From the NCBI GenBank assembly GCA_030587435.1, contig JAUQZC010000120.1, positions 1-18,486 of the forward strand: a stretch of DNA of 18,486 bases, in the 5' to 3' direction. The position numbers were made by a program, and so were the translations under genes. Each line of letters starts with the position of its first letter. Position 1 is the stretch's first letter. Positions 654 to 16,853 of the stretch are shown piece by piece. The notes beneath the pieces are model-generated. The model searched no databases. It was given only the letters and a program-made list of their open reading frames with translations, and was not told where the DNA came from. Source of the stretch: Candidatus Baldrarchaeota archaeon (GTDB lineage: Archaea; Asgardarchaeota; Baldrarchaeia; Baldrarchaeales; DXJG01).

Positions 654-660
654 TTTATAA
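654..660 (+). promoter_or_regulatory. TATA box of the CARF/cas2/cas4 operon
   Basis: TTTATAA at 654-660 is centred about 27 nt upstream of the GTG at 684. That fits an archaeal TATA box driving a leaderless or near-leaderless transcript. It is the only such element immediately before the six-gene operon. Confidence 0.5.
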
Positions 661-683: not shown

Positions 684-1451
684 GTGGTGGTTAGGTTGGA
701 GTGTTTGGTGGCAGGTGTGGGATTGCAGCCATCGCCTATATCCGCTCTTATTGACTGTTTGGCTTCTATTGTTCCTAGGGGTAAACTGGATTTTGTTGAG
801 CTGATTGCTACGAGTAGTGAGCGCTGTTTAGATTCCGCTTATCTCATTAAGTTTGATGTTGAAGGTAGATTGGATGCGCGTGTAAATGTTCATGTGCTTT
901 CCGGCGAAGATGTTAAAAGTTTTGAGGATGTTGCTGAGTTCTTAAAGGTTTCAGGTAGAATTATCAGATATTATGTTGAGAGGGGCGTTGATGTTTATGT
1001 TTCTGTTAGTGGTGGACGTAAAGACTCTGTATCTTCCTTAATTTTTTTGGGTTCTCTTTTCGGAGCGAAAAGAGCTTTCCACATAATTACCGAGGGTATT
1101 TCCTATCTGAATGAGCTGTGGTTTCAAGTGTATCAGCATCTAAAAGGTTTTCACCGTTTTCCTCAAGAGGAAAAACAGCAAAAATACAATGCGTATAAGG
1201 ATCTTATAAATGAGGTTCTTCACCCTTCAAAAGAAGCTGTCAACCTTGTTGAGGTTCCTCTACTACCCGTGACAAACTCTTTCAGAAAAAATCTACATAT
1301 TACTCTTAAAGGTATTAGTTCTGGTGAAGTTTCAACTAAAAGTGAAGAGATAATTTCTGTTCTTAGGAAAATGGGTTATGTTGAATTCAAAGAAAAAACT
1401 GCTTTTTTAACTAGGCTTGGAAAACTTCTCTTAGATTTACTGGAGGGATAA
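684..1451 (+). CDS. CARF-wHTH protein, first gene of CRISPR accessory operon
   Basis: The 255-residue protein has a CRISPR-associated Rossmann fold (CARF) domain. The first strand and turn read VAGVGLQPSP (about 9-18), and the second signature, SVSGGRKDS (107-115), is followed by a hydrophobic helix and strand (118-134). Such domains bind cyclic oligoadenylate. The last 45 residues (about 212-255) look like a winged helix (SEEIISVLRKMGYVEF, then an LTRLGKLLLDLL helix), as in Csa3 or Crn1-type ring nucleases. The GGRK lysine sits where I recall ring nucleases having a catalytic lysine, so cyclic-oligoadenylate cleavage is possible but unproven. GTG at 684 is 27 nt after the TATA box; GTG 687 and TTG 696 are alternatives. 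Its codons end largely in T, unlike the A-rich genes that follow, which suggests a separate origin. Confidence 0.75.
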   Translation: MVVRLECLVAGVGLQPSPISALIDCLASIVPRGKLDFVELIATSSERCLDSAYLIKFDVEGRLDARVNVHVLSGEDVKSFEDVAEFLKVSGRIIRYYVERGVDVYVSVSGGRKDSVSSLIFLGSLFGAKRAFHIITEGISYLNELWFQVYQHLKGFHRFPQEEKQQKYNAYKDLINEVLHPSKEAVNLVEVPLLPVTNSFRKNLHITLKGISSGEVSTKSEEIISVLRKMGYVEFKEKTAFLTRLGKLLLDLLEG

Positions 1452-1453
1452 AT

Positions 1454-2278
1454 ATGGGAACTTTTCACTTTGTAACCTTAGGTTACAGTCCCGGTGTAGT
1501 TACATGTCCACTATACATTTTAAGCAAGTATATGGCTAAAGAAATGCCAGGCGGCGTACAGAAAGTTTTAATATTTACCCCAAGCGAACTACGTGAAAAG
1601 ACGTTGGGCAAATTTGTCGAAGAAAGCAAGTCTATTAAGAAACCAACCTTTTTCATCAAAAATAATGACGTTACTAAGAGATATTTGCATTTATCTATTC
1701 CAGAAATCGCTGAGAGGGTGTTAAGCGAATATGTAGATGTAAAAGAGGATATAGAAATCATATATTTGCCAGATAAAGTTAATGTAAGTCGAATGCTTCC
1801 GATTTTCGCTGAACACTTTGCAGAGCACTGGAAGCATAGAAATAATGTATGGGTTAACCCTGCAGGCGGAACCGTACCTATGTCTATCGCAATAATGTTC
1901 ATGGCGCAGCTTTACGCTGCAGCTGGAAAAATATACTACACATATGCTCATCCAGGCAGTGAAAGATATTTAATCCCACCTGATAACTGGAAGGAACACT
2001 TTGAACTTACAATGCTACCTATTTTCCCAACGTTCTTACATAGAGCTTACATTTTAACCCTACAACACGTTAGAAAAGCTAGAAGTAAAGAAGAGATACT
2101 GTCTTTTTTAAGGGCTAACAACGAGGAAGTTGACGATAACAGGTTACGCTGGATGCTTTTACGACTAGAATCCTATGGCTACATCGAGAAAACACAGAGA
2201 AAAGTTGTTTTAAGCAGCAGAGGACAAGAAGTCCTAAAGGTGATCGATAAAATAGCTAAACTTTTCCCTAGGGGCTAA
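1454..2278 (+). CDS. CARF-wHTH protein, second in operon
   Basis: The 274-residue protein opens with a CARF first motif, FVTLGYSPGVV (6-16), and carries the second CARF signature, VNPAGGTVPMSIAI (134-147). It then has a winged-helix region (about 197-265: SKEEILSFLR, then LRWMLLRLESYGYIEKTQRKVVLSSRG). This is the architecture of Csa3-like regulators. Unlike the first and fourth genes of the operon it has no lysine after the glycines (GGTV), so I infer a sensor or regulator rather than a ring nuclease. GGAGGGA at 1442-1448 is a clear ribosome binding site for ATG 1454, and the gap to the previous stop is 2 nt. The ligand and target genes are unknown. Confidence 0.75.
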   Translation: MGTFHFVTLGYSPGVVTCPLYILSKYMAKEMPGGVQKVLIFTPSELREKTLGKFVEESKSIKKPTFFIKNNDVTKRYLHLSIPEIAERVLSEYVDVKEDIEIIYLPDKVNVSRMLPIFAEHFAEHWKHRNNVWVNPAGGTVPMSIAIMFMAQLYAAAGKIYYTYAHPGSERYLIPPDNWKEHFELTMLPIFPTFLHRAYILTLQHVRKARSKEEILSFLRANNEEVDDNRLRWMLLRLESYGYIEKTQRKVVLSSRGQEVLKVIDKIAKLFPRG

Positions 2279-2280
2279 AA

Positions 2281-2559
2281 ATGGTTAGGTTTTTCGTCGT
2301 TTATGATATCAGTGAACACGATGTTCGCAGGGAACTTAGAGAAACCTTGAAGAACTGGGGAGGCATATGGCTTCAATACAGTGTCTTCGAATTAGATCTG
2401 CCTAAAGATGAAATTGAAACATTGGTTAAGATCGTCAGAAGAATTTTAAGGAAAGGTACTGGGGAAGTCCGCTTCGTTTTCCCATGCAAATCTTGCTACG
2501 AGAAAATTGAACATATATCTACACGAATAAGTGATTTGATGGAATGGGATATAATATGA
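2281..2559 (+). CDS. cas2: Cas2 adaptation protein
   Basis: The 92-residue protein has the normal Cas2 length and ferredoxin-like pattern. The first strand is FFVVYDIS (4-11), carrying the conserved Asp9 after a Tyr; then comes REL..TLKNWG in helix 1, then the WLQYSVFELDL strand (30-40). Cas2 forms the Cas1-Cas2 integrase that inserts spacers next to the leader. The gene lies 2 nt after the CARF-wHTH gene and its TGA overlaps the ATG of the next gene (ATGA at 2556-2559), so it is translationally linked to CARF genes rather than to cas1, which lies 7 kb away. The frame is intact. Confidence 0.93.
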   Translation: MVRFFVVYDISEHDVRRELRETLKNWGGIWLQYSVFELDLPKDEIETLVKIVRRILRKGTGEVRFVFPCKSCYEKIEHISTRISDLMEWDII

Positions 2560-3035
2560 GCGAAGTATGGATATGCTTCCTCGGAGTAACTCCACAAGCC
2601 ATATATAACACTATTTGGGCAGCAGTATCCAAAAACATGTGCAAACCAGTAAAATTTCATTTCATCGCATCAAAAGAAGCAATAAAACACCGCAGCACTA
2701 TTGAGAAAAAGGTTAAAGCCATCTGCCAAGAATTCTTAAACATAACACCAGAAATAAAGTTCCATATAGTTGATGAACAAGATTTAGAGGAAATCTTTAA
2801 AGTTCCACGTGAAATAGCTAGGCAAGAAAAGGAAAAGGGCAACAATGCGGTAATTGATGTTACTCCTGGAAGAAAATACATGTCAATTGCATCGCTACTA
2901 GCAGCCCTTGACTGCGACGCAGAAAAAATTCTATACCTCCATTTAAAGGGCCCCTCTTATCAAGGAAAAGATTACCCCTTGATACCCTATCCTTTACAGG
3001 AGTTGAGGGATCTCAAAAATGAATTTGGAAGATAG
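2556..3035 (+). CDS. Stand-alone CARF domain protein (possible ring nuclease)
   Basis: The 159-residue protein is little more than one CARF domain: ICFLGVTPQAIYNTIW (6-21) is the nucleotide-binding first motif and VIDVTPGRKYMSIASLL (99-115) the second. There is no C-terminal wHTH or HEPN effector domain. A lone CARF with a GRK lysine fits a cyclic-oligoadenylate-degrading ring nuclease or a sensor subunit that partners another protein, perhaps the PIN protein encoded next. I chose ATG 2556 because it forms an ATGA overlap with the cas2 stop; an in-frame ATG at 2544 would lie deep inside cas2. Its 3' end overlaps the next gene by 17 nt, so the two are probably co-translated. Confidence 0.72.
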   Translation: MSEVWICFLGVTPQAIYNTIWAAVSKNMCKPVKFHFIASKEAIKHRSTIEKKVKAICQEFLNITPEIKFHIVDEQDLEEIFKVPREIARQEKEKGNNAVIDVTPGRKYMSIASLLAALDCDAEKILYLHLKGPSYQGKDYPLIPYPLQELRDLKNEFGR

Positions 3036-4089
3036 GTTTGAAAAATTTCTTATCTGTGAAGATGAGCTTCAAGTAGTTTTAAACGAACTTTATAAAGAAT
3101 CGGAGAAATTTGAAATCATGTTGCCTTTTACGCTTCGTGAACCTGCTCTTGAAATAAACTTTGAGACCCTTGAAATTAAAATAAATGTTGGGAAAAATGA
3201 CTTTCAACTTCCCGTAAAAACCGCAAAAAAAGTTAAGAGCGAAATATCTAATTACGGAGATGTTCTCGACGCGCTTTTCTCCGCAGGAATACTAAAACCT
3301 GAAAATGAAGACGAAATCATAAATTTTTTGAAGAATAAAATGACGGAAGCTGAAAAGTTTACTTCTTCGCCAAGGCCCTTTGCTATAGCTTTTGACACTA
3401 ACTGCTTTATGCTTAAAGTACCTTCAAACCTTTTAAAAAAGGAACTTAGAAAAATTCCTTGCGTATATTCGGAACTGGTTTTAGAGGAACTTGGGCTGCT
3501 TGCTCAACATAAACTTAACGGAATTATTGAACATTTAAAACAACTATATCCAAGCTCAGCCCATGAACTCTCTTTTTTACGGCACTGTGAAACTAGAATT
3601 GCTAGAAGAGCAAAAATGGGTATAGCTGAGGTCAACAAGCTTCAAATAGAACATGCTGGCAAAACAATAGGAGCCAAACCCCCAAACAACTTTTCAACAC
3701 TGAGTAGCATTGAGAGAGATAATCAAATTATAGAAAGCTACGTAAACTACCAGGAAGAAAGAAAAGTTGAGCTTATCTTCTTAACTACAGACAACAATGC
3801 AAATATTCGCGCAGCTACAAAAGGACTAGCAACATTTTACATAAAACAGCCAACAAACCTATCAAATATCAAAATAAACTATAAATCCTTAACAAAACTA
3901 TTTTACACCCTATCAGTAATGTTCGGCTACATCAAGCTTAGAACAGGATTCACAACCACACTAATTTATAGTACATGGCCTGGAAAAACTTTCAACGAAT
4001 GGAAAAACAACCTAATGAAAATCCTAATACCAAAAGACACCAAAGCAACTCAAAACATAAGGAAACATTTAGCAGTTTTAAGAACATAA
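3019..4089 (+). CDS. CRISPR-linked PIN-domain nuclease with novel N-terminal region
   Basis: Of 356 residues, positions about 120-280 match the PIN nuclease pattern: Asp126 in AFDTNCF, a Glu-rich helix SELVLEELGLL (151-161), Asp234 in ERDNQII, and Asp258 in FLTTDNNANIRAA followed by a strand. These four acidic positions would bind the catalytic metals, and PIN domains usually cleave RNA. The first 115 residues, with a strand-rich part and a helix about 96-113, and the last 70 residues match nothing I recognise. The protein is far longer than a VapC toxin (about 130-140 residues). It overlaps the upstream CARF gene by 17 nt and abuts cas4 with no gap, so a CRISPR role is likely; I infer an RNase whose activity may be controlled by the neighbouring CARF proteins. 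Family assignment by motif only. Confidence 0.72.
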   Translation: MNLEDRFEKFLICEDELQVVLNELYKESEKFEIMLPFTLREPALEINFETLEIKINVGKNDFQLPVKTAKKVKSEISNYGDVLDALFSAGILKPENEDEIINFLKNKMTEAEKFTSSPRPFAIAFDTNCFMLKVPSNLLKKELRKIPCVYSELVLEELGLLAQHKLNGIIEHLKQLYPSSAHELSFLRHCETRIARRAKMGIAEVNKLQIEHAGKTIGAKPPNNFSTLSSIERDNQIIESYVNYQEERKVELIFLTTDNNANIRAATKGLATFYIKQPTNLSNIKINYKSLTKLFYTLSVMFGYIKLRTGFTTTLIYSTWPGKTFNEWKNNLMKILIPKDTKATQNIRKHLAVLRT

Positions 4090-4830
4090 GTGAGAAACAT
4101 GATAAGAGGCTACAGCGAAAAAGCAAAAACCCCCTTAAAAATAATTCTTAACGTTAGAGACATATACTCCTACCTTTACTGTCCAATATGGGCATACATA
4201 CTAAAAACATACCATTTCAAACAACCCGTAACAAGAAAAATGCTACAGGGAAAAGCACTACACGAACTAAGATACACAACAACAAAATTCTTAATCAAAG
4301 GTTTAAATATCCAAAAAGCTATAAAACTTGCAATACAAGAAGTAACTGAAAAATTTAAAGAACTAAAACCATCAGAAATAAAAATTGTGATACAAGACTT
4401 CCGCAAAAACTATGAAATCCTTAAACACGTTCCAGAAACATTTGAATACGAAGTTTACTTAAAATCTGAAATACTTGGACTAAAAGGCAGAATAGACATC
4501 ATAGAGAACGGACATCCCATTGAAATCAAATACACAAACATGAGAACAGGGTTCCCAGAAAAAATTCAACTAACACTTTACGCCCTTCTTCTCGAAGGAA
4601 AAACTAAGAAAAACATTGAGTACGGATTTATAGAAAACTGGAAAACCGGAGAAAAAACAAAAATACAATTCACAGAAAAACTGAGAGAAAAAGCTATAAA
4701 AATGAGAAACAACGCAATAAAATACTTCTACATAGAAAAAACAAAACACATCAAAAAAGCTAAAGTAAGCATCAGAAAATGTGAAAACTGCGAAATAGAA
4801 GAATTCTGCAAAACAATAACCAACCAGTAA
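4090..4830 (+). CDS. cas4: Cas4 exonuclease
   Basis: The 246-residue protein is a RecB-like, Fe-S cluster Cas4. It has Cys31 in YLYCPIWAY, His58 in GKALHE, Asp136 in GRIDIIE, Glu145 and Lys147 in PIEIKYTN, QLTLY (160-164) as motif QxxxY, and Cys231, Cys234 and Cys240 in CENCEIEEFC. All four cluster cysteines and the catalytic residues are present. Cas4 trims prespacers and selects PAM-bearing ends for Cas1-Cas2. GTG 4090 follows the TAA of the PIN gene directly; ATG 4099 is an alternative start. The coding strand is very A-rich with AAA and ATA codons, in contrast to the first gene of the operon. This is the last gene of the operon; the orphan array-flank copy begins 125 nt downstream. Confidence 0.92.
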   Translation: MRNMIRGYSEKAKTPLKIILNVRDIYSYLYCPIWAYILKTYHFKQPVTRKMLQGKALHELRYTTTKFLIKGLNIQKAIKLAIQEVTEKFKELKPSEIKIVIQDFRKNYEILKHVPETFEYEVYLKSEILGLKGRIDIIENGHPIEIKYTNMRTGFPEKIQLTLYALLLEGKTKKNIEYGFIENWKTGEKTKIQFTEKLREKAIKMRNNAIKYFYIEKTKHIKKAKVSIRKCENCEIEEFCKTITNQ

Positions 4831-6171: not shown

Positions 6172-6265
6172 AGAACAGCAAGCTTCCGGTGTTATAAGCA
6201 GTTCGTTCAAATTTTTCAAACTGGTTTTCACATTCAAAAAATCTTAATTAAAAAAGAACAGCACG
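6172..6265 (+). CRISPR. Relic CRISPR unit: partial repeat, spacer-like stretch, full repeat
   Basis: The 35-nt segment 6231-6265 matches the array repeat at all but two positions: A for T at repeat position 2 and C for A at position 34. Upstream, AGAACAGCAAG at 6172-6182 is identical to the last 11 bases of the repeat; the 48 nt between (6183-6230) would be a spacer, close to the 37-46 nt of the main array. The first half of the upstream repeat is unrecognisable. There is no further repeat on the right; a recombinase fragment starts 19 nt beyond. Orientation is the same as the main array. This is a fragment of a former array 5.8 kb from the present one. Confidence 0.8.
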
Positions 6266-6283
6266 TGAAGCTCAGATGTGTGA

Positions 6284-6668: not shown

Positions 6669-7580
6669 TTAGGTGACATTTTCGGCTAGATCTTTCAGCC
6701 ACTTCATGAATTCTGTTAAGAATGAGTAAAGCTTTTTCTCGTCTATCTTTTCTATTAGGAGATGTCTTTCCGATCCGAAAGGGAAATTTTTAACACTTAA
6801 CATGGAAACTTTTTCTCTTAGGTTTCTCCTGTACTTCTTGTAAAGTTCTAGGATGAATCTTAATTTTTCCAATGTCTCCCTTTTCAATTTCTTTAGGTTT
6901 ATGTTAAATTTGCTAGAGATGAAGTATATGTCTATAAAGTCTCTTTCTTTAAACCCTCTTCTAGTTAGGATTGCTCTAACTTTTTCACACAATATTTCTC
7001 TGATGTCGTACACGTTGAAGGGTATGGTTTCTCTATACTCCATGTAGTACGTTGGAAAGAGAAATTCGAGTTCCTTCGATTCCGGGCAAATAGACCTTAA
7101 TTCAACCTTCTTTACTGGAAATATTATGTTTTCAACGAAATTTATCTGTATTTTAATGAACGTTTCGGTTTCGATTATTGAGGGAAACCATAACTTAAAT
7201 GTCACGAACTTGTTACCGCCACCAAGCTCCACATATCTTCTGTTACCTTTTTCACATTTGAAGTCTAGACCCCTTTTCTCAGATATTTTTTCGAACAACT
7301 TTCCAATTGAATCTATTTTGCTAGATAAAAGTCTTCTAACAGCTTTTTGGCTTAATCCTTTGAAAATCGATTGGTTAAGGAAGGTGAAGTCCAAGTCTAC
7401 TGAGAACCTATAGTAGCCGAGGTAATATTTTATTAGACAGCTTCCACCTTTAAAAGCAAAGTTTTCTGCAAAATTTGTTTTTGAGAGATCTAGTAAGATT
7501 TGATGTAACAGGAGATCTTTCTCAACTAGACTTTTATCTAACTTTAGCCTTTTGCTCACTTCCTCAACAAATTCTTTCAT
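6669..7580 (-). CDS. AbiEii-type nucleotidyltransferase toxin
   Basis: The 303-residue protein has the AbiEii/AbiGii nucleotidyltransferase signature: AFKGGSCLIKYYLG, then FSVDLDF. That gives Gly45-Gly46-Ser47 of the GS motif and Asp62/Asp64 of DxD. A later VYDIREILCEKVRAILTRR helix and the ERDFIDIYFI segment correspond to the third and fourth family motifs. Such toxins transfer nucleotides to tRNA or protein targets and act in phage defence as type IV toxin-antitoxin systems. ATG at 7580 overlaps the TGA of the antitoxin gene (ATGA), so the two are translationally coupled. All key residues are present, so the toxin is likely functional. Confidence 0.87.
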   Translation of the reverse strand: MKEFVEEVSKRLKLDKSLVEKDLLLHQILLDLSKTNFAENFAFKGGSCLIKYYLGYYRFSVDLDFTFLNQSIFKGLSQKAVRRLLSSKIDSIGKLFEKISEKRGLDFKCEKGNRRYVELGGGNKFVTFKLWFPSIIETETFIKIQINFVENIIFPVKKVELRSICPESKELEFLFPTYYMEYRETIPFNVYDIREILCEKVRAILTRRGFKERDFIDIYFISSKFNINLKKLKRETLEKLRFILELYKKYRRNLREKVSMLSVKNFPFGSERHLLIEKIDEKKLYSFLTEFMKWLKDLAENVT

Positions 7581-8209
7581 CTTATCATCTCCAAGGTTCC
7601 TCTAACTGTCTTTGGATACTTTTCCGAGTATTTGAAGAGTTTTTTCTTGGAAGCTTTACTGACTAGCTCTGAGATATCAAGAACGATTTTCTCCTCAGGT
7701 ATACCTCTGTACCGCCATAGGTATATGAAGTCTAAAATTGTTTTTTCCAAGTCAGAGTACCTTAACCTGTTTTTTTCCTTTATTCCGAAGAAAAGCGACG
7801 GTTTAATCTTTATGAACTTAAACCTGTGACCTGCTACCTTTATCTCGCTAGCTCTGAATATTTTATCGTTTAAGACGAATTCTATCGGGAAGTATTCGTG
7901 AGTAACACCATTAAGCCTTAAAGCTGTGTAAAGGCCAAAGTACCAGTTTTTAACTCCTTTGACTTCCATACCTTCAGCAATCAGTTCTAGATGGCTTAAG
8001 TCAAGTTTCCCAAGCTTAATCTCCCTTGGAGATTTCACGTAAAAAACTCCTTTGAAAATTCTGACAAGATAATCTCTACTTAGGAGATATCTGACCATAT
8101 TTTCGTATTTAGCTTCAATCTCTTTACACATACTCTTTAAGGTAGTAGAATCAGTAATCTTTCTATTCTCTACCCACAGTTTTTTCATAAGCAACTCTGC
8201 CTTTCTCAT
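7577..8209 (-). CDS. AbiEi-type antitoxin / transcriptional regulator
   Basis: The 210-residue protein has an N-terminal winged-helix region (LMKKLWVENRKITDS, then MVRYLLSRDYLVRIFKGVFYV) and a C-terminal domain with YFGLYTALRLNGVTHEYFP and the YSDLEKTILDFIYL helix. This is the two-domain plan of AbiEi antitoxins, which neutralise AbiEii and repress their own promoter. I chose the ATG at 8209; a GTG at 8218 is in frame but lies inside the repeated operator-like motif. The gene is first in a two-gene operon with the toxin. The upstream DNA carries several GTGATAT elements (see 8210-8275). Confidence 0.8.
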   Translation of the reverse strand: MRKAELLMKKLWVENRKITDSTTLKSMCKEIEAKYENMVRYLLSRDYLVRIFKGVFYVKSPREIKLGKLDLSHLELIAEGMEVKGVKNWYFGLYTALRLNGVTHEYFPIEFVLNDKIFRASEIKVAGHRFKFIKIKPSLFFGIKEKNRLRYSDLEKTILDFIYLWRYRGIPEEKIVLDISELVSKASKKKLFKYSEKYPKTVRGTLEMIR

Positions 8210-8275
8210 ATATATCACAATATCACACTTTTTATTACATTATAATATATATGATTATATCACATTATCAAATAA
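8210..8275 (-). promoter_or_regulatory. Promoter/operator region of the AbiE pair
   Basis: On the minus strand the motif GTGATAT occurs three times: once near 8258-8266, then twice in tandem (GTGATATTGTGATAT) immediately before the antitoxin start. A palindromic AT core (ATATATTATAATG) between them may be the TATA region. AbiEi antitoxins repress by binding repeats in their own promoter, so these are candidate AbiEi sites. Assigned by repetition and position only. Confidence 0.5.
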
Positions 8276-9345: not shown

Positions 9346-9525
9346 ATTATGTTTTCAAGTTTTTACCGAAAAATGAGAAACAGCTTATTTATTTTTATGT
9401 GAGTTCTATGTTTACGGCTTGGAACGATGTTAAGAATATCAATTTTTCATATTTATATTGATATATTGCAAAAATGTATCTGTTTATGTACGATATTTTT
9501 GTTGTTTACTGTTTTTTATTTTTGA

Positions 9526-10050
9526 AGAGAGGCAGAAGCAGCTAGAATATATTTTGAAGCACTTAAAAGCACTTTGGATGAAAGTTATGGATTTACCGGT
9601 AGAACGCGGCAACCTCCCAAAGATCCTGTGAACGCCGCTTTAAGTTTCGGCTATGTCTGGCTTTACAATATTGTTGCAGAAGAGTTGTGGATGCAGGGAT
9701 TAGATCTTCGAGTCTCATTCTTGCACGTGCCTTGGAGAAAGAGAACCGGGTTAGCTTTAGATTTGGCGGAGGAATTTAAGCAGCCAATAATAGATATTGT
9801 TGTTTCATCGATGTTTAAGTCTAAAATATTCGATATAGAAGAAGATTTTACAAGAGATAGAGGAGTTCTTCTTTCGAGAAAGGGAAGGTCTAAGCTTTTG
9901 AAAGCTCTTTATACTAGACTTAATTTTCGGTTTAAACTTAAAGGAGAAACACAAGACCTAAGATCTTGGATTACTACCCAAGTTTCTAAGCTAAAAGACC
10001 ATTTTCTTAAAAATGTTCTCTACGAACCTTTTATGGTGAATGATGCATGA
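9526..10050 (+). pseudogene. cas1: Cas1 C-terminal half, N-terminal half missing
   Basis: The frame opens right after a TGA with REAEAARIYFEAL, the first metal-binding Glu region of Cas1. It continues with GRTRQPPKDPVNAALSFGY, FLHVPWRKRTGLALDLAEEF and PIIDIVV, carrying the catalytic His and Asp. The catalytic C-terminal domain (about 175 residues) is complete, but the beta-strand N-terminal domain of about 130-150 residues is absent. Only 180 nt separate this frame from the preceding pseudogene, so there is no room for it. A TTG at 9574 could start translation but would lose the Glu. The 3' end overlaps the second cas1 by ATGA (10047-10050). Cas1 normally dimerises through the N-terminal domain, so this fragment alone is unlikely to integrate spacers. 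Confidence 0.85.
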
Positions 10051-10850
10051 TTATTCATATAGTAACTTCGGATTTTACTTTAAAAGCTAAAAGCAAAAGA
10101 TACGTAGTTTCATTGAAAGAAAAAGAATACGAATTTCCAGCAATAAAAACCGAGTGCATAATTTTAAACCCTCATGGCAATTTAACCTCTGCCGCGGTAA
10201 AACTAGCAGAAGAACATAAAACAACAATAATATTCGTGGATGACAACTTTAAAATTACATACCTCAGTTTTCTAGACGCAGCTAAAGACATAAAATATCT
10301 TTTAGGTCAAGTCGAAAGTTTTCTACATAGAAAAGAAGAATACGCAAAAATATTTTCGAAAACCGCTGAAAACTCGCGAAAACAAATTGTAAAATACCTT
10401 GATCTAGGCTTTGAAAGCGAAGGAGATTTTTGGAAAGATGAAGAAAAATACATTTAACGTTTAGAGGAAGCCTTCGGACATGAAATACAATACATGGTTA
10501 ATTTTGCTAGAGCAAGGCTGGTAGCGGAGTGCCTACACTTTTTATTAAAGACAGGACTACACCCGTCGTTAGGTTTTCTCCACGAAGGGGAAGCATCTCT
10601 AGCGAAAGATCTAGCATTAGAGCTACAATACAATGTGTGTGATCTTACTGCAGTAAATGTTGTCAAGAAGGGTGGAACCATTAAAAACTTGGTTCAAATG
10701 TACCAGAAGAAAATGGAAACCAGCTTTACTCATCCAGTACTTAAAAGACAAACAACGTATCGAGAAGCAATAAAAATACAGGCAAAAACCTTAGCTGCAA
10801 CGATGATATCTCCAGACATAAAATACAGTCCATTAAGAACCCGCTTATAA
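10047..10850 (+). pseudogene. cas1: Second Cas1, interrupted by one in-frame TAA
   Basis: From ATG 10047 the frame gives a Cas1 N-terminal beta domain (MIIHIVTSDFTLKAKSKRYV, then ECIILNPHGNLTSAAVKLAEEHKTTIIFVDD), a helical linker and the Glu region FESEGDFW. It stops at TAA 10455-10457. The same frame continues without a shift: RLEEAFGHEIQYMVNFARAR, then LHPSLGFLHEGEASLAKDLA with the catalytic His and Asp, to a stop at 10850. With the TAA read as a sense codon the product would be 267 residues, somewhat short for Cas1. The region matching RxPxDPVN in the other copy is compressed to QYMVNFARAR, so this is a divergent Cas1. Either a nonsense mutation, two separately translated halves (second start near ATG 10494), or a sequencing error. 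Confidence 0.82.
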
Positions 10851-10943: not shown

Positions 10944-11369
10944 CTATAATTGTTTTCTTATTTTTGGTGGTATGGGGTTTTCATATATTAGTCCGTATTC
11001 CTCTGCTAACTTTTTTACGTGCTTATCGTTCGAAACTATTATTGGGATTTTATGTTCTAAAGCTGTAGCCACCAGTAGGGCGTCTCCTAAAGGTACGTTT
11101 TCTTCTGCAGCTATATTGAAACCTGTACTTGAAACATCGATTAAATTTAAGCCAAAAGCTATTATTCTAATTTTCTTAGCTACGTTTTCTCTAGGTCTAA
11201 CTTTATAGTACCAGTAAAGGGTGTTATATGTTTCAAGTAGAGTCGTTACTGTGACATATAGTTGAATTTTGCCTTTTAGGCCTTTGCTAATTAAGGGCTT
11301 AGTGTAAGGTGTTGCAATATGGTTTTCCAAAAGAGCGTAAGACAAAATATCTGCATCGATAAGCCTCAC
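10944..11369 (-). CDS. vapC: VapC-type PIN ribonuclease toxin
   Basis: The 141-residue protein is a typical small PIN toxin. Acidic residues are in MRLIDADILSYAL (Asp5, Asp7), TTLLETYNTL (Glu46), VPLGDALLVATAL (Asp95) and IIVSNDKHVKKLAEEYG (the NDKH Asp). Such toxins cleave tRNA or rRNA when released from the antitoxin. The GTG start at 11369 overlaps the TGA of the antitoxin gene, the usual coupled vapBC arrangement. It is not related in architecture to the long PIN protein at 3019-4089. The frame and active site are intact. Confidence 0.9.
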   Translation of the reverse strand: MRLIDADILSYALLENHIATPYTKPLISKGLKGKIQLYVTVTTLLETYNTLYWYYKVRPRENVAKKIRIIAFGLNLIDVSSTGFNIAAEENVPLGDALLVATALEHKIPIIVSNDKHVKKLAEEYGLIYENPIPPKIRKQL

Positions 11370-11608
11370 TCTTTAACACCGCCGTAAAGTTCTTTTCCTC
11401 TCTCAGCATCGGCTCTCGTCATATCATCACTAGTATAAAGCTTAATTTTATTAAACTCCTTAAACAATTCTTCTCTATTAAATCTCCTTAGAACAATGGT
11501 GTCACCGATTTTTTCAACTAAAAGTTCATCATCCGGCTTTAAATCGCTCCTATATTTCTTAGGTATAACAATACGCCACCTACTATCAATTTTAACAATT
11601 TCTCCCAT
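11366..11608 (-). CDS. vapB: AbrB/MazE-family (VapB) antitoxin
   Basis: From ATG 11608 the 80-residue protein begins MGEIVKIDSRWRIVIPKKYR, the swapped-hairpin DNA-binding motif of AbrB/SpoVT family antitoxins. This is followed by LKPDDELLVEKIGDTIVLRR and an acidic C-terminal tail that would wrap the toxin. An in-frame ATG at 11638 would add ten residues (MICYVGWGVG) that do not fit the family, so I prefer 11608. It is upstream of and overlapping vapC, and by analogy represses its own operon. Confidence 0.87.
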   Translation of the reverse strand: MGEIVKIDSRWRIVIPKKYRSDLKPDDELLVEKIGDTIVLRRFNREELFKEFNKIKLYTSDDMTRADAERGKELYGGVKE

Positions 11609-11744
11609 ACCCACACCCCAACCCACATAGCAAATCACAGCTATTTAAACATTACGAAAGACACTCCGCAAAGTTGTAACCAGCATAAACTACCCCGATC
11701 AACTCGTCTGCACAACACAGCGCCATCCTAATAGCATTAACATA

Positions 11745-12056: not shown

Positions 12057-12479
12057 CTTTCAAAAAAATCTTAATTAAAAAAGAACAGCAAGTATCTCTA
12101 GCGACGTCGATCTGCTTCTTTTCCGGAGTCTTTCAAAAAATCTTAATTAAAAAAGAACAGCAAGGAGGGAGATCCTTAACCAGCTTCTTATCAACTATAA
12201 TCACAGCAAACTTTCAAAAAATCTTAATTAAAAAAGAACAGCAAGCTACATGTAAACGCTGATCAACGAAAAAGTCAACAATAGTTACTTTCAAAAAATC
12301 TTAATTAAAAAAGAACAGCAGGTTCTTGAATCTCTGGAATTAAGATAAACGGTTTGCGAAGTATTTTCTTTCAAAAAAATCTTAATTAAAAAAGAACAGC
12401 AAGATTCTTTGAACAACGTAGTTGATGATGTTTGAAATTTTATCCTTTCAAAAAGTCTTAATTAAAAAAGAACAGCAAG
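12057..12479. CRISPR. CRISPR array, 6 repeats and 5 spacers
   Basis: Repeats lie at 12057-12092, 12130-12164, 12211-12245, 12288-12322, 12368-12403 and 12445-12479. On the plus strand they start CTTTCAAAAAATCTTAATTA and end AAAAAGAACAGCAAG, 35 nt; the first and fifth have one extra A (36 nt), the fourth ends CAGG, and the last has G for A at position 11. Spacers are 37, 46, 42, 45 and 41 nt, all different. Read on the minus strand the repeat ends TTTTTTGAAAG, resembling the archaeal ATTGAAAG 3' end that becomes the crRNA 5' handle. No spacer matches elsewhere in the window by eye. The cas6 gene lies 360 nt to the right. Confidence 0.98.
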
Positions 12480-12505
12480 TTAACAGTGGCCGATTTTCCC
12501 CCATC

Positions 12506-13881: not shown

Positions 13882-14544
13882 TCAAAATTTTTCTTGAATA
13901 TCTAGATATAGTTCTGCAAGTTCGGTTAGTTTTATTTTCTTTTTACCATGTGGCCCTCCAGGTTCTCTTCTGACCATGCCCAGTTTTTCGAGTTTTTTAA
14001 CGTATTGACTTACCATGGATTTTGTTCTTCTCTTATATGGGGTACTTAATCTTCTTGCTAAATCTGTGATTGATTCTGCTTCACCTTTCTTTAATTCTTT
14101 TAATATTGTTAATGCAAAAGTGCCTAGCTTTTTTGTCAGGCTTAATTTTCTTGTCGGTATTTCTATTGGCCCTATTGGTGGTCCGTCTTCTCTATGTAAT
14201 ATGTATATGACTTTTCCTCTTTCTATATCTGCAGCGAGCTGTGCTCCTAAGCTCATTGTTCTCGTTCCGCAACTCATGTTTATTACAGGGTCATAGTCTT
14301 CGTGAGTTTTTATGATTTTTAAGGTCTTTCTAAGGACATCGAATAAATCGAATGGTTCAACCTTTATTATTTCAACTGGGATCCCGTAAGTTTTTTGGAT
14401 TTTTGTTTCTAGCTCCTTAGCGTATGTCATAGTGTCTTTTGAGGGCATTAATACTACTTTGTCTGTTTGACATCTTGCTAGTCCTATTTCTATTGGTTTA
14501 TTATGTTCTCCTACAGTTGCGATGTATAAGATCTTTTTTGCCAA
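13882..14544 (-). CDS. csa3: Csa3 CARF-wHTH transcription regulator
   Basis: The 220-residue protein has an N-terminal CARF domain: KKILYIATVGEHNKPIEIGL (3-22) and the signature PVINMSCGTRTMSLGAQLAA (86-105). A C-terminal winged helix (about 140-215) follows, with SITDLARRLS, SMVSQYVKKLEKLGMV and a basic wing GPHGKKKIKL. This is the Csa3 layout; Csa3 proteins bind cyclic oligoadenylate and activate cas adaptation genes or arrays in Sulfolobales. TTG 14544 follows GAGGAGG, a strong ribosome binding site. It is the first gene of a csa3-cas6 operon. Three motif copies at a 21-nt period lie immediately upstream and may be its own binding sites. Confidence 0.87.
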   Translation of the reverse strand: MAKKILYIATVGEHNKPIEIGLARCQTDKVVLMPSKDTMTYAKELETKIQKTYGIPVEIIKVEPFDLFDVLRKTLKIIKTHEDYDPVINMSCGTRTMSLGAQLAADIERGKVIYILHREDGPPIGPIEIPTRKLSLTKKLGTFALTILKELKKGEAESITDLARRLSTPYKRRTKSMVSQYVKKLEKLGMVRREPGGPHGKKKIKLTELAELYLDIQEKF

Positions 14545-14979: not shown

Positions 14980-15254
14980 ATTTTTCACTGCATTAAATTG
15001 ATAAAATACGTATAAAATGAGTTGGAAAATTTAGATATTATGTTGTTCAATTTTTAATATCAGTGTTCGAATTGATCTCGGTTTTTTGTCTCTAAACTTA
15101 TGTTGACAAGTTTTCTAATTTTACATAACGTTTTCTTTTCTTTTCTGATTTTATGTTACATACCTTTCGTTGAAGGTTGACAGTCGATAACGTTTTTAGC
15201 GATACTTGTATTATCATGTATAGTTATGTTATTGGTGTTTTAGAGGGGATTGTG

Positions 15255-16853
15255 TTGAATTTGAATGAGGTTTTTAAGGGGTTTGTTAACTCTGCGGCTA
15301 GAATATTAAATGTTAAACCTCCAGATAAGGTTCCTGAAGTTTCTTTGGGTGATTTTGGTTTTGATTTAAATAGTAGGTGGTTTGGTGTTCGTAGAGAAAG
15401 TGATGTTATTTTTATTTCTAGGAAGCTGGTTGGCACGGGTTTGTTGAGAGGTGTTTTGGCTAGGGAGGCTTTTCGGCTTTTTATGCCTAAATGTTTAGAA
15501 AGTGTTGAAGAAGCTGGTGATTTGGCTTGGGAGTTTGCTAGGCTGCAGCTTCACGGCGATGAGGAGAAGCTTTGGGCTTCTACTTGGTTTAAGGTTAGTC
15601 CTAAGGTTTTTGTTAAGAATATTGTTTACTATGCTCCTTTTGGGTTTCCTATTTTTGAGAAGCTGTCTGGTGGCCGTTTTTTGGGAGAAGTTTTTAAGAT
15701 TTTTCGACAGCTTGATGTTTACCGTTATGATTTAAGTTTCGAAGAATATGTTGAGGTTTTAGAAGAGTTTATGTCGAATTTTCCTTATGTTTTGGATGAT
15801 TTTGAGAGAGGTGTTCTTCAAGTTTTTTTGAATAATCCTAGTTTGTCTAGGCAGGAGTTGGCTGAAAGAGTTGGTAGACATGTTTCGAAGGTTTCTAGGG
15901 TTGTTTCCCGCTTGAAGTCTCTTTACGTTTTACGTAGTTATCCTATGGTTTTTCTCCCTAAAATTGGCTTAAGAACATTTGTTTTCGTCTTTCAACCCAA
16001 ATTCGAATATAGAGATTACATTCTAGATATTCTTCATGAGTGTCCATTTCTTTATAGTGTTTTGGAAGCTGTTGACGGTAATATGCCTATTGTAGCGTTT
16101 TTCTGCGCTCCTCTTGGGTTTGATAAATATTTGGAAAGGTTTGTAAGTCAGCTTTTGAAGTTGAGGTTAGTGGATTTTGCTGAGTGGTTTTTGAGGTTTG
16201 AAACATATAAGCACTATAGTTTTAGGTTTTATGTTCCTAAGGTTGGTTGGAGGATCGAGTGGGAGGCTTGGGCTCTCTGGTTTAAGAAAGTTTTGCTTGA
16301 AGGGGAATACTATGAGGTTTTAGGTGTTGAAGGCCCTATATTTGAGGACGTTAAGGTTGAGAAGCTTGATAAGGTTGATTTGAAGATTTTGGATTTCGTT
16401 TGGATGAATAGGGTTGCGGATGTTCGTAGTGTTCGAGAAGCTTTGAAGATTAGTATGAATGATGCGGCTGAAAGACTTAGAGAATTAAGATCTCGTGGCA
16501 TTATTGTTAGAAGAGCTGATGCTTCAAATATTGGTTTAAGTGAGATTGCTGTTTTCGTGGCTGGGATGAACGAAAGAACTTATCAAGCTTTCATCGCAGC
16601 TTTGGATGATTTGCCTCTTCATTTTACCAGTAAACTTCAAGGTGAACATAGGAATGTAGTACTAAGCAACGTTTTGCTTCCAGAGGGTGGCGGTATTTGG
16701 TTTGCTAAGGTTTTGAAAAAATATTTTGAAGGGCCTTTTAATGTTTGGTTCGGCCGTTACGTTTCAGGTATAACTTTTAAGCTTCCTATTGATCTTTATG
16801 ATTATAGGAGGAGGAAATGGAAAATACCTGTTGAAATCTTAAGTTTAAAGTAG
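15255..16853 (+). CDS. Large transcription regulator with two winged-helix domains
   Basis: The protein (532 residues from TTG 15255) has two HTH regions. One at about 182-228 reads FERGVLQVFLNNPSLSRQEL and VGRHVSKVSRVVSRLKSLYV; one at about 371-421 reads LDKVDLKILDFVWMNRVADV and NDAAERLRELRSRGIIVRR. Both resemble Lrp/AsnC-like wHTH domains. The regions between and after are mixed alpha/beta of unknown type, possibly two RAM-like ligand domains. It resembles long double-wHTH regulators of Bathyarchaeia, but I cannot name a ligand or target. GAGGGG at 15243-15248 favours the TTG at 15255 (or GTG 15252); the frame is open back to TTG 15177, with ATG 15216 between. The coding strand is G- and T-rich, like the first gene of the CARF operon. 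No operon partner. Confidence 0.75.
   Translation: MNLNEVFKGFVNSAARILNVKPPDKVPEVSLGDFGFDLNSRWFGVRRESDVIFISRKLVGTGLLRGVLAREAFRLFMPKCLESVEEAGDLAWEFARLQLHGDEEKLWASTWFKVSPKVFVKNIVYYAPFGFPIFEKLSGGRFLGEVFKIFRQLDVYRYDLSFEEYVEVLEEFMSNFPYVLDDFERGVLQVFLNNPSLSRQELAERVGRHVSKVSRVVSRLKSLYVLRSYPMVFLPKIGLRTFVFVFQPKFEYRDYILDILHECPFLYSVLEAVDGNMPIVAFFCAPLGFDKYLERFVSQLLKLRLVDFAEWFLRFETYKHYSFRFYVPKVGWRIEWEAWALWFKKVLLEGEYYEVLGVEGPIFEDVKVEKLDKVDLKILDFVWMNRVADVRSVREALKISMNDAAERLRELRSRGIIVRRADASNIGLSEIAVFVAGMNERTYQAFIAALDDLPLHFTSKLQGEHRNVVLSNVLLPEGGGIWFAKVLKKYFEGPFNVWFGRYVSGITFKLPIDLYDYRRRKWKIPVEILSLK

Follow-up and report, generated by a model that had tools for sequence, protein, structure and literature searches.

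What does a CARF sensor do beside a PIN nuclease when the two are separate, overlapping genes between cas2 and cas4? The question is raised by an 18,486-nt stretch of DNA from a Candidatus Baldrarchaeota archaeon (contig JAUQZC010000120.1, assembly GCA_030587435.1), analysed here at its full length and called the window. The phylum Baldrarchaeota is placed by NCBI taxonomy within Promethearchaeati, which we take to be a synonym for Asgard archaea. At 684-4830 of this 18.5-kb window, the list of open reading frames (ORFs) holds six intact ORFs, all on the forward strand and spaced, from gene 1 to gene 6, by 2 nt, 2 nt, a 16-nt overlap, a 17-nt overlap and 0 nt (Table 1). These coordinates bear out the original prediction of six intact head-to-tail genes with overlaps or gaps of 0-2 nt, and the profile searches that it had proposed for each protein matched CARF, CARF, Cas2, CARF_m1, PIN_4 and cas4, respectively. 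Judged from its sequence and predicted models, the pair formed by genes 4 and 5 is a split version of a known CARF-PIN fusion. We consider it likely that the two proteins are subunits of one ligand-gated RNase, a split SiRe_0806-type enzyme that would respond to a cyclic oligoadenylate (cA) signal made by Cas10.

Computed comparisons establish the homology, the fold and the split. The window CARF and PIN proteins match the PADLOC CARF_m1 and CARF_m1-PIN families at 1e-28 and 1e-32. On the fusion profile, which describes a single protein of 465 positions, the CARF covers columns 2-150 and the PIN protein columns 164-453; the stand-alone CARF_m1 models are silent on a neighbouring PIN. Both families reportedly originate in Makarova et al. 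2020. SiRe_0806 of Sulfolobus islandicus (PDB 9JXW, apo; 9JXX, with cyclic tetraadenylate, cA4; released 2025-07-23) is recognized as a CARF-PIN protein because it matches both profiles and aligns to both models; it has the same two domains in the same order, in one chain where the window has two genes. Its residues 1-138 align with the predicted window CARF model, and its residues 150-414 with positions 5-356 of the PIN model; identity over the aligned residues is 15-17%, and both models are confident. Sensor and nuclease therefore map in order onto one solved chain. CARF folds cover residues 4-163 of the 163-amino acid (aa) window CARF model, where a further, unlisted fold is possible, and the PIN model matches PIN folds in the PDB. 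Our literature search found no paper describing SiRe_0806. A fusion in the strict sense carries both domains on one polypeptide; in the window they occupy two ORFs in different frames, and for this reason we call the pair a split form that would work like the fusion.

The predicted pocket and active-site residues are conserved. Across the CARF rows, T107, G109 and K111 of the loop occur in 64/64, D105 and R110 in 63/64, and P108 in 60/64, identical rows included. The four predicted catalytic residues of the PIN domain are given in Table 1; the nearest relative of the window genome (G001, below) lies outside the 73 PIN rows counted. These counts left out a broken locus (L032), one with an identical PIN protein (L110), and repeat, partial or weak loci (L060, L061, L066, L067, L068, L075, L076, L089, L094 and L122), the PIN of L068 being the first 110 aa only. 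From its structural likeness to a cA4-bound protein, the CARF_m1 sensor most likely binds cyclic oligoadenylate and would be activated by it.

Table 1. Positions of the operon genes, predicted functional residues and other features in the window
Feature	Position	Strand	Evidence or remark
Gene 1, CARF5-type protein (Csx14/NE0113), probable CARF-wHTH (winged helix-turn-helix) regulator, 255 aa	684..1451	+	Pfam Cas_NE0113 3.6e-14; PADLOC CARF5 8.6e-29
Gene 2, divergent CARF protein, probable C-terminal wHTH, 274 aa	1454..2278	+	PADLOC Csx1 8.2e-9, CARF3 1e-7
Gene 3, cas2, 92 aa	2281..2559	+	Pfam CRISPR_Cas2 1.2e-16; NCBIfam cas2 above cut-off
Gene 4, CARF_m1, predicted sensor subunit, 163 aa	2544..3035	+	PADLOC CARF_m1 2.1e-28
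Gene 5, PIN, putative RNase subunit, 356 aa	3019..4089	+	PIN_4 6.4e-8; PADLOC CARF_m1-PIN 1e-32
Gene 6, cas4, 246 aa	4090..4830	+	NCBIfam cas4 2.7e-20, above cut-off
D-V-T-P-G-R-K loop of CARF (D105-K111), predicted ligand pocket	2856..2876	+	Aligns to TGGRK loop of Sso2081
D126, PIN domain, predicted catalytic	3394..3396	+	73/73 PIN proteins
E157, PIN domain, predicted catalytic	3487..3489	+	73/73 PIN proteins
D234, PIN domain, predicted catalytic	3718..3720	+	73/73 PIN proteins
D258, PIN domain, predicted catalytic	3790..3792	+	73/73 PIN proteins
TATA-box-like TTTATAA (archaeal), inferred	654..660	+	Centred 27 nt before GTG at 684; read from sequence, no significance test
Remains of two tandem cas1 genes, context outside operon	9574..10850	+	First without 5' part, second with in-frame stop; relatives in G001 and G002
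CRISPR array, 6 repeats	12057..12484		Context outside operon
Csa3-like CARF3-wHTH regulator, 220 aa, context	13882..14544	-	PADLOC CARF3 6e-28; NCBIfam Csa3 3.3e-14, below cut-off

The separated form had been regarded as unfamiliar; it is not confined to this contig and proves to be the more frequent one among the loci listed. A profile search of named contigs (genome_contigs) returned at least 63 CARF-encoding loci, and among those listed a separate PIN gene adjoins the CARF in 58, the two are fused in 4 (L122 on weak matches, 4e-6 and 6e-6) and 1 lies at a contig edge. Of the 58 split pairs among the matches listed, 22 have a CARF stop and PIN start that overlap by 4 nt, and in another 20 the overlap is 1 nt. 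Eight of the listed loci were dropped from later counts as Asgard repeats (the four of them that were checked are the same DNA). A split caused by assembly error is rejected, since the split recurs in G001 and in dozens of genomes with similar short overlaps. Hosts include Asgard archaea, Thermoplasmatota, a member of the Archaeoglobaceae, Methanosarcinales, Methanoperedens, Hydrothermarchaeota, Thermococcus (fused) and many haloarchaea. In the Asgard set around G001, searched with a narrow alignment (A1) that may have missed distant members, 20/227 genomes carry a PIN relative. A separate CARF gene lies directly upstream at 16 of the 23 Asgard PIN loci (L001 and 15 others); L032 is broken with a CARF upstream, L038 is fused, and five have no adjoining CARF on the same strand (L030, at a contig end, L041, L043, L045 and L047). 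On the tree, fusion requires three changes. The fused Lokiarchaeal L114 nests inside a split clade, which indicates that fused and split forms interchange; the window protein sits on a long branch, so that its precise placement is unsure.

At least 59 PIN relatives were listed in the protein database. Four are close (81-99% identical) and, at 356 aa each, are separate from the CARF. The other 55 among the matches listed are not close kin and have no precomputed Pfam domain; most carry no product name, and the rest are labelled hypothetical or uncharacterized protein, or FCF1 in 2 rows. Organism names accompany four of the matches listed, all of them haloarchaea. Phage records contained no match to the window PIN protein. 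Three nearly identical haloarchaeal PIN genes (L078, L079 and L080; 8474-9517) come from two families, one on a contig titled plasmid, and were probably transferred horizontally in recent times.

Within the class Baldrarchaeia, two of the four genomes examined carry the pair, in both cases adjoining cas2 and cas4. Among the genomes searched the nearest is G001, where a 3178-bp contig, 96% identical to the window over 3036 bases, keeps the gene order CARF-cas2-CARF-PIN-cas4. The 149-aa C-terminal part of gene 2 is present there, and gene 1 is unseen because the contig ends inside gene 2. A gene order unique to the window contig is thus rejected: the search for the same order in other archaeal genomes, suggested with the original prediction, finds it again in G001, and the operon is not a chance assembly. 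A CARF and PIN pair inside an adaptation-gene operon is what had been described, and the relative shares that operon. Selection on the operon had been suggested; for the four complete genes, the ratio of nonsynonymous to synonymous substitution rates (dN/dS) against G001 is 0.13 for the CARF (from three changes only), 0.15 for the PIN, 0.18 for cas2 and 0.22 for cas4. Baldrarchaeum yapensis (G002), in another family of the class, also carries CARF and PIN as separate ORFs, as in G001, with cas2, cas4 and a CARF5 relative of gene 1 (L061:2081-2863) near the pair. Two different cas2 genes lie within 1.4 kb at that locus (L061:2871-3161 and 3933-4241), one of them overlapping cas4. The C-terminal extension of the Baldrarchaeum PIN protein (L029:5672-6865) resembles, by eye, a helix-turn-helix (HTH) of the MerR/excisionase type.

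No Cas10 was found among the window ORFs scanned with Pfam, NCBIfam and PADLOC profiles; the statement that the system is without Cas10 therefore holds for the window and no further, as its relative G001 has a Cas10 that carries GGDD. As to a CRISPR association of the PIN gene elsewhere, which had been posed as a test of the operon, methanogens and two Asgard genomes have the pair next to type III Cas10 operons. Five genomes of the methanogen group, one Thermococcus (fused form) and two Asgard genomes encode Cas10 no more than about 8 kb away, and PADLOC confirms it in L069, L037 and L030; of the Asgard loci, L037 is III-B-like and L030 is III-D-like. A Methanohalophilus locus reads Cas6, Cas10, Cas5/Cas7-like genes, CARF, PIN, CARF-HEPN Csx1, Cas1 and Cas2 (Csx1 and Cas1 as annotated in the sister locus L098). 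A Cas10 match was obtained in 12/20 Asgard PIN carriers and 39/207 other Asgard genomes (Fisher p 1.6e-4, with no correction for phylogeny or for genome incompleteness), and some of these matches may not be Cas10 because the model also matched the E. coli control genome. Among named genomes with the pair that are neither Asgard nor haloarchaeal, the figure is 7/13. Co-occurrence with Cas10 is seen in part: the profile search detected no Cas10 in G002 or in seven further Asgard carriers, which weighs against the link to type III, and the sampled haloarchaeal carriers, considered below, gave none either.

In the mechanism that we propose, the overlapping CARF and PIN genes would be co-translated and the subunits would assemble into a complex. 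The ligand of the CARF subunit would be a cyclic oligoadenylate, probably cA4, supplied by a Cas10 encoded elsewhere in the genome; its binding would unlock the PIN subunit to cut RNA. With cas2 before the pair, cas4 after it and two CARF regulators at the head of the operon, one signal could drive two outputs, raising transcription of the adaptation genes, as the CARF-wHTH protein Csa3a does in Sulfolobus, and switching on RNA cleavage. In the accessible part of one report, Csa3a binds upstream of the cas1, cas2, cas4 and csa1 operon and activates it, and the S. solfataricus homologue binds cA4 while its specific DNA binding is unchanged by cA4 (PMC8844856). Given this precedent, we infer that adaptation and RNA cleavage could plausibly be controlled together. 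The window may resemble the Csa3a system in combining a probable CARF-wHTH-type regulator with adaptation genes; it differs in that genes 1 and 2, directly upstream of cas2, are a CARF5-type and an unclassified CARF, the Csa3-like gene is separate, and an RNase pair lies inside the adaptation operon. Of the CARF-wHTH assignment given earlier to genes 1 and 2, the CARF part stands on profile matches, although all Pfam CARF matches to gene 2 fall below cut-off; the wHTH part is likely only, as no HTH model exceeded its cut-off on either gene. Family membership and length suggest that both probably end in winged helices.

How far the setting of the pair should be trusted is another matter. An ordinary fission of a CARF-PIN effector could have ended up beside cas2 and cas4 by accident, uncoupled from adaptation, and we give this a little less than even chances; it is compatible with the split enzyme and denies the coupling only. 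The cas2/cas4-embedded order is found only in the window and G001, with G002 as a divergent neighbour, and most other Asgard loci showed no relative of the window cas2 or cas4 beside the pair, which favours this reading. Several observations fit a chance neighbour less well: the six co-directed genes show no gap above 2 nt; G001 keeps the order, with the dN/dS values given above; in another family of the class the pair again has cas2, cas4 and a CARF5 gene in its vicinity; and in methanogen loci it is closely followed by Csx1, Cas1 and Cas2. It could also be supposed that the pair is a toxin-antitoxin system, in which a VapC-like PIN toxin is held in check by the product of the small upstream CARF gene until a ligand lifts the inhibition. 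VapBC modules do join a PIN RNase to a small overlapping upstream gene, as the window pair does, but here the sensor is a CARF domain and the PIN protein, at 356 aa, has extra N- and C-terminal parts. The upstream antitoxin of VapBC carries a DNA-binding domain; in the window CARF, residues 4-163 are taken up by CARF folds, though a fold outside the listing may be present as well. We find this explanation improbable.

The haloarchaea bear on a different possibility, that the two genes form a defence or stress module independent of CRISPR, in which the CARF senses another nucleotide (viral, tRNA-derived or a CD-NTase product), the PIN cuts RNA, and the placement among cas genes is secondary recruitment. 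In an even sample of 341 haloarchaeal genomes, which overlaps the named set, 48 reached E 1e-6 and 45 remained as PIN carriers once weak fragments (G315, G332 and G483) were set aside. A CARF lies directly beside the PIN or is fused to it in 43 of these (2 fused: G439 and G496); in G404 the two stand at opposite ends of one contig, and G394 has a partial PIN without a CARF. The profile search found Cas10 in 0/45 carriers and in 1/341 genomes overall, a non-carrier; among named haloarchaeal genomes with the pair, 1/33 has a Cas10 match, away from the pair. Cas1 was found in 11/45 carriers against 115/341 of all genomes (Fisher p 0.18); ten of these carriers have it on a different contig from the pair, and one at a distance of 279 kb. 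The mCpol model matched 0/45 carriers, with no control genome over its cut-off either, and SMODS cyclases exceeded cut-off in 6/45. Forty neighbour clusters were listed and 10 annotated; none of the 8 recurrent haloarchaeal ones is a cas gene, and they comprise helicases, an ADP-ribosylglycohydrolase, an integrase, and Cdc6/Orc-like, AAA-DUF4143, VWA and HEAT-repeat proteins. Yet the haloarchaeal branch is a single one (monophyletic, 100/100) and its neighbours on the tree are the type III-linked Methanosarcinales with one Hydrothermarchaeota row (96/81; midpoint root only), so that it could be a lineage that departed from CRISPR and not one that came before it. The window pair, moreover, is embedded in cas genes, divergent cyclases can escape profiles, the mCpol model was passed by no control genome, and many-contig genomes can hide linkage. 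We consider independence from CRISPR unlikely. A broader picture, which we offer tentatively and with rather more doubt than belief, is an autonomous two-gene immune or stress module for which type III systems and the Baldrarchaeia adaptation operon are only some of the hosts; in haloarchaea, with no Cas10 or mCpol and usually no Cas1 detected, it would answer to a novel nucleotide signal, and in Baldrarchaeia RNA cleavage and spacer acquisition may share a single trigger.

Outside the operon, the broken state of other cas genes described in the original prediction is confirmed for cas1, and for cas6 by an apparent frameshift near the N-terminus, judged by eye in three frames. The tandem cas1 region of the window, taken with its flank, spans 9525-10850. 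Relatives also have cas1 in tandem, a full-length gene followed by a short Cas1-like gene (L133:5452-7198; L134:1776-3601). The short gene matches the Cas1 profile at its N- and C-terminal parts only and encodes 256 aa in G001, where it is open to the contig end, and 316 aa in G002; the middle part is absent in two genera, and the copies in the relatives are open. Directly before the truncated window cas1, 110 bases (9419-9528) are 84% identical to L132:3921-4029, the far end of the Cas10-bearing G001 contig, and are possibly a deletion scar or the end of a mobile element. Two toxin-antitoxin-like pairs lie on the reverse strand: an AbiEii-type nucleotidyltransferase toxin (PF08843, 6.6e-27), whose overlapping upstream partner is without a Pfam match (6669-8218), and a VapC-like PIN gene with an overlapping upstream gene whose MazE antitoxin match is just below cut-off (10944-11638). 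A single copy of the CRISPR repeat lies at 6230-6270, 5.8 kb from the array, and a winged helix (PF13412) is the sole Pfam match over cut-off in a 558-aa protein at 15177-16853. Rfam gave no match in the window at gathering thresholds, and sigma-70 and terminator scans, whose models are unsuited to archaea, gave counts at the level of shuffled sequence.

CARF effectors are usually described as single proteins activated by the Cas10 product. CARF-PIN fusions are known: section 7 of PMC4012209 names two CARF families that associate with PIN, and one fusion has been solved with cA4. We found no description of a split CARF/PIN pair in the literature, including the accessible parts of PMC4012209, PMC12669027, PMC8730458, PMC7854544, PMC7694759, PMC8844856 and PMC11229360; the 2020 CARF classification paper may report part of it, and the stand-alone CARF_m1 models in PADLOC mean that such CARF proteins, at least, have been seen before. 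As far as the searched literature goes, three points are new: the two-gene form is the more frequent among the archaeal loci listed, the pair lies inside a cas2/cas4 operon in Baldrarchaeia, and it occurs without a detected cyclase in most haloarchaeal carriers.

These observations concern a PIN family that is barely annotated in databases. The conserved CARF and PIN pair of haloarchaea without detected Cas10 raises the question of which signal is sensed, and genetically workable haloarchaea (Haloferax) carry the pair, so that this question is testable. In Baldrarchaeia, the position of the pair between cas2 and cas4 likewise makes a coupling between RNA cleavage and spacer acquisition testable.

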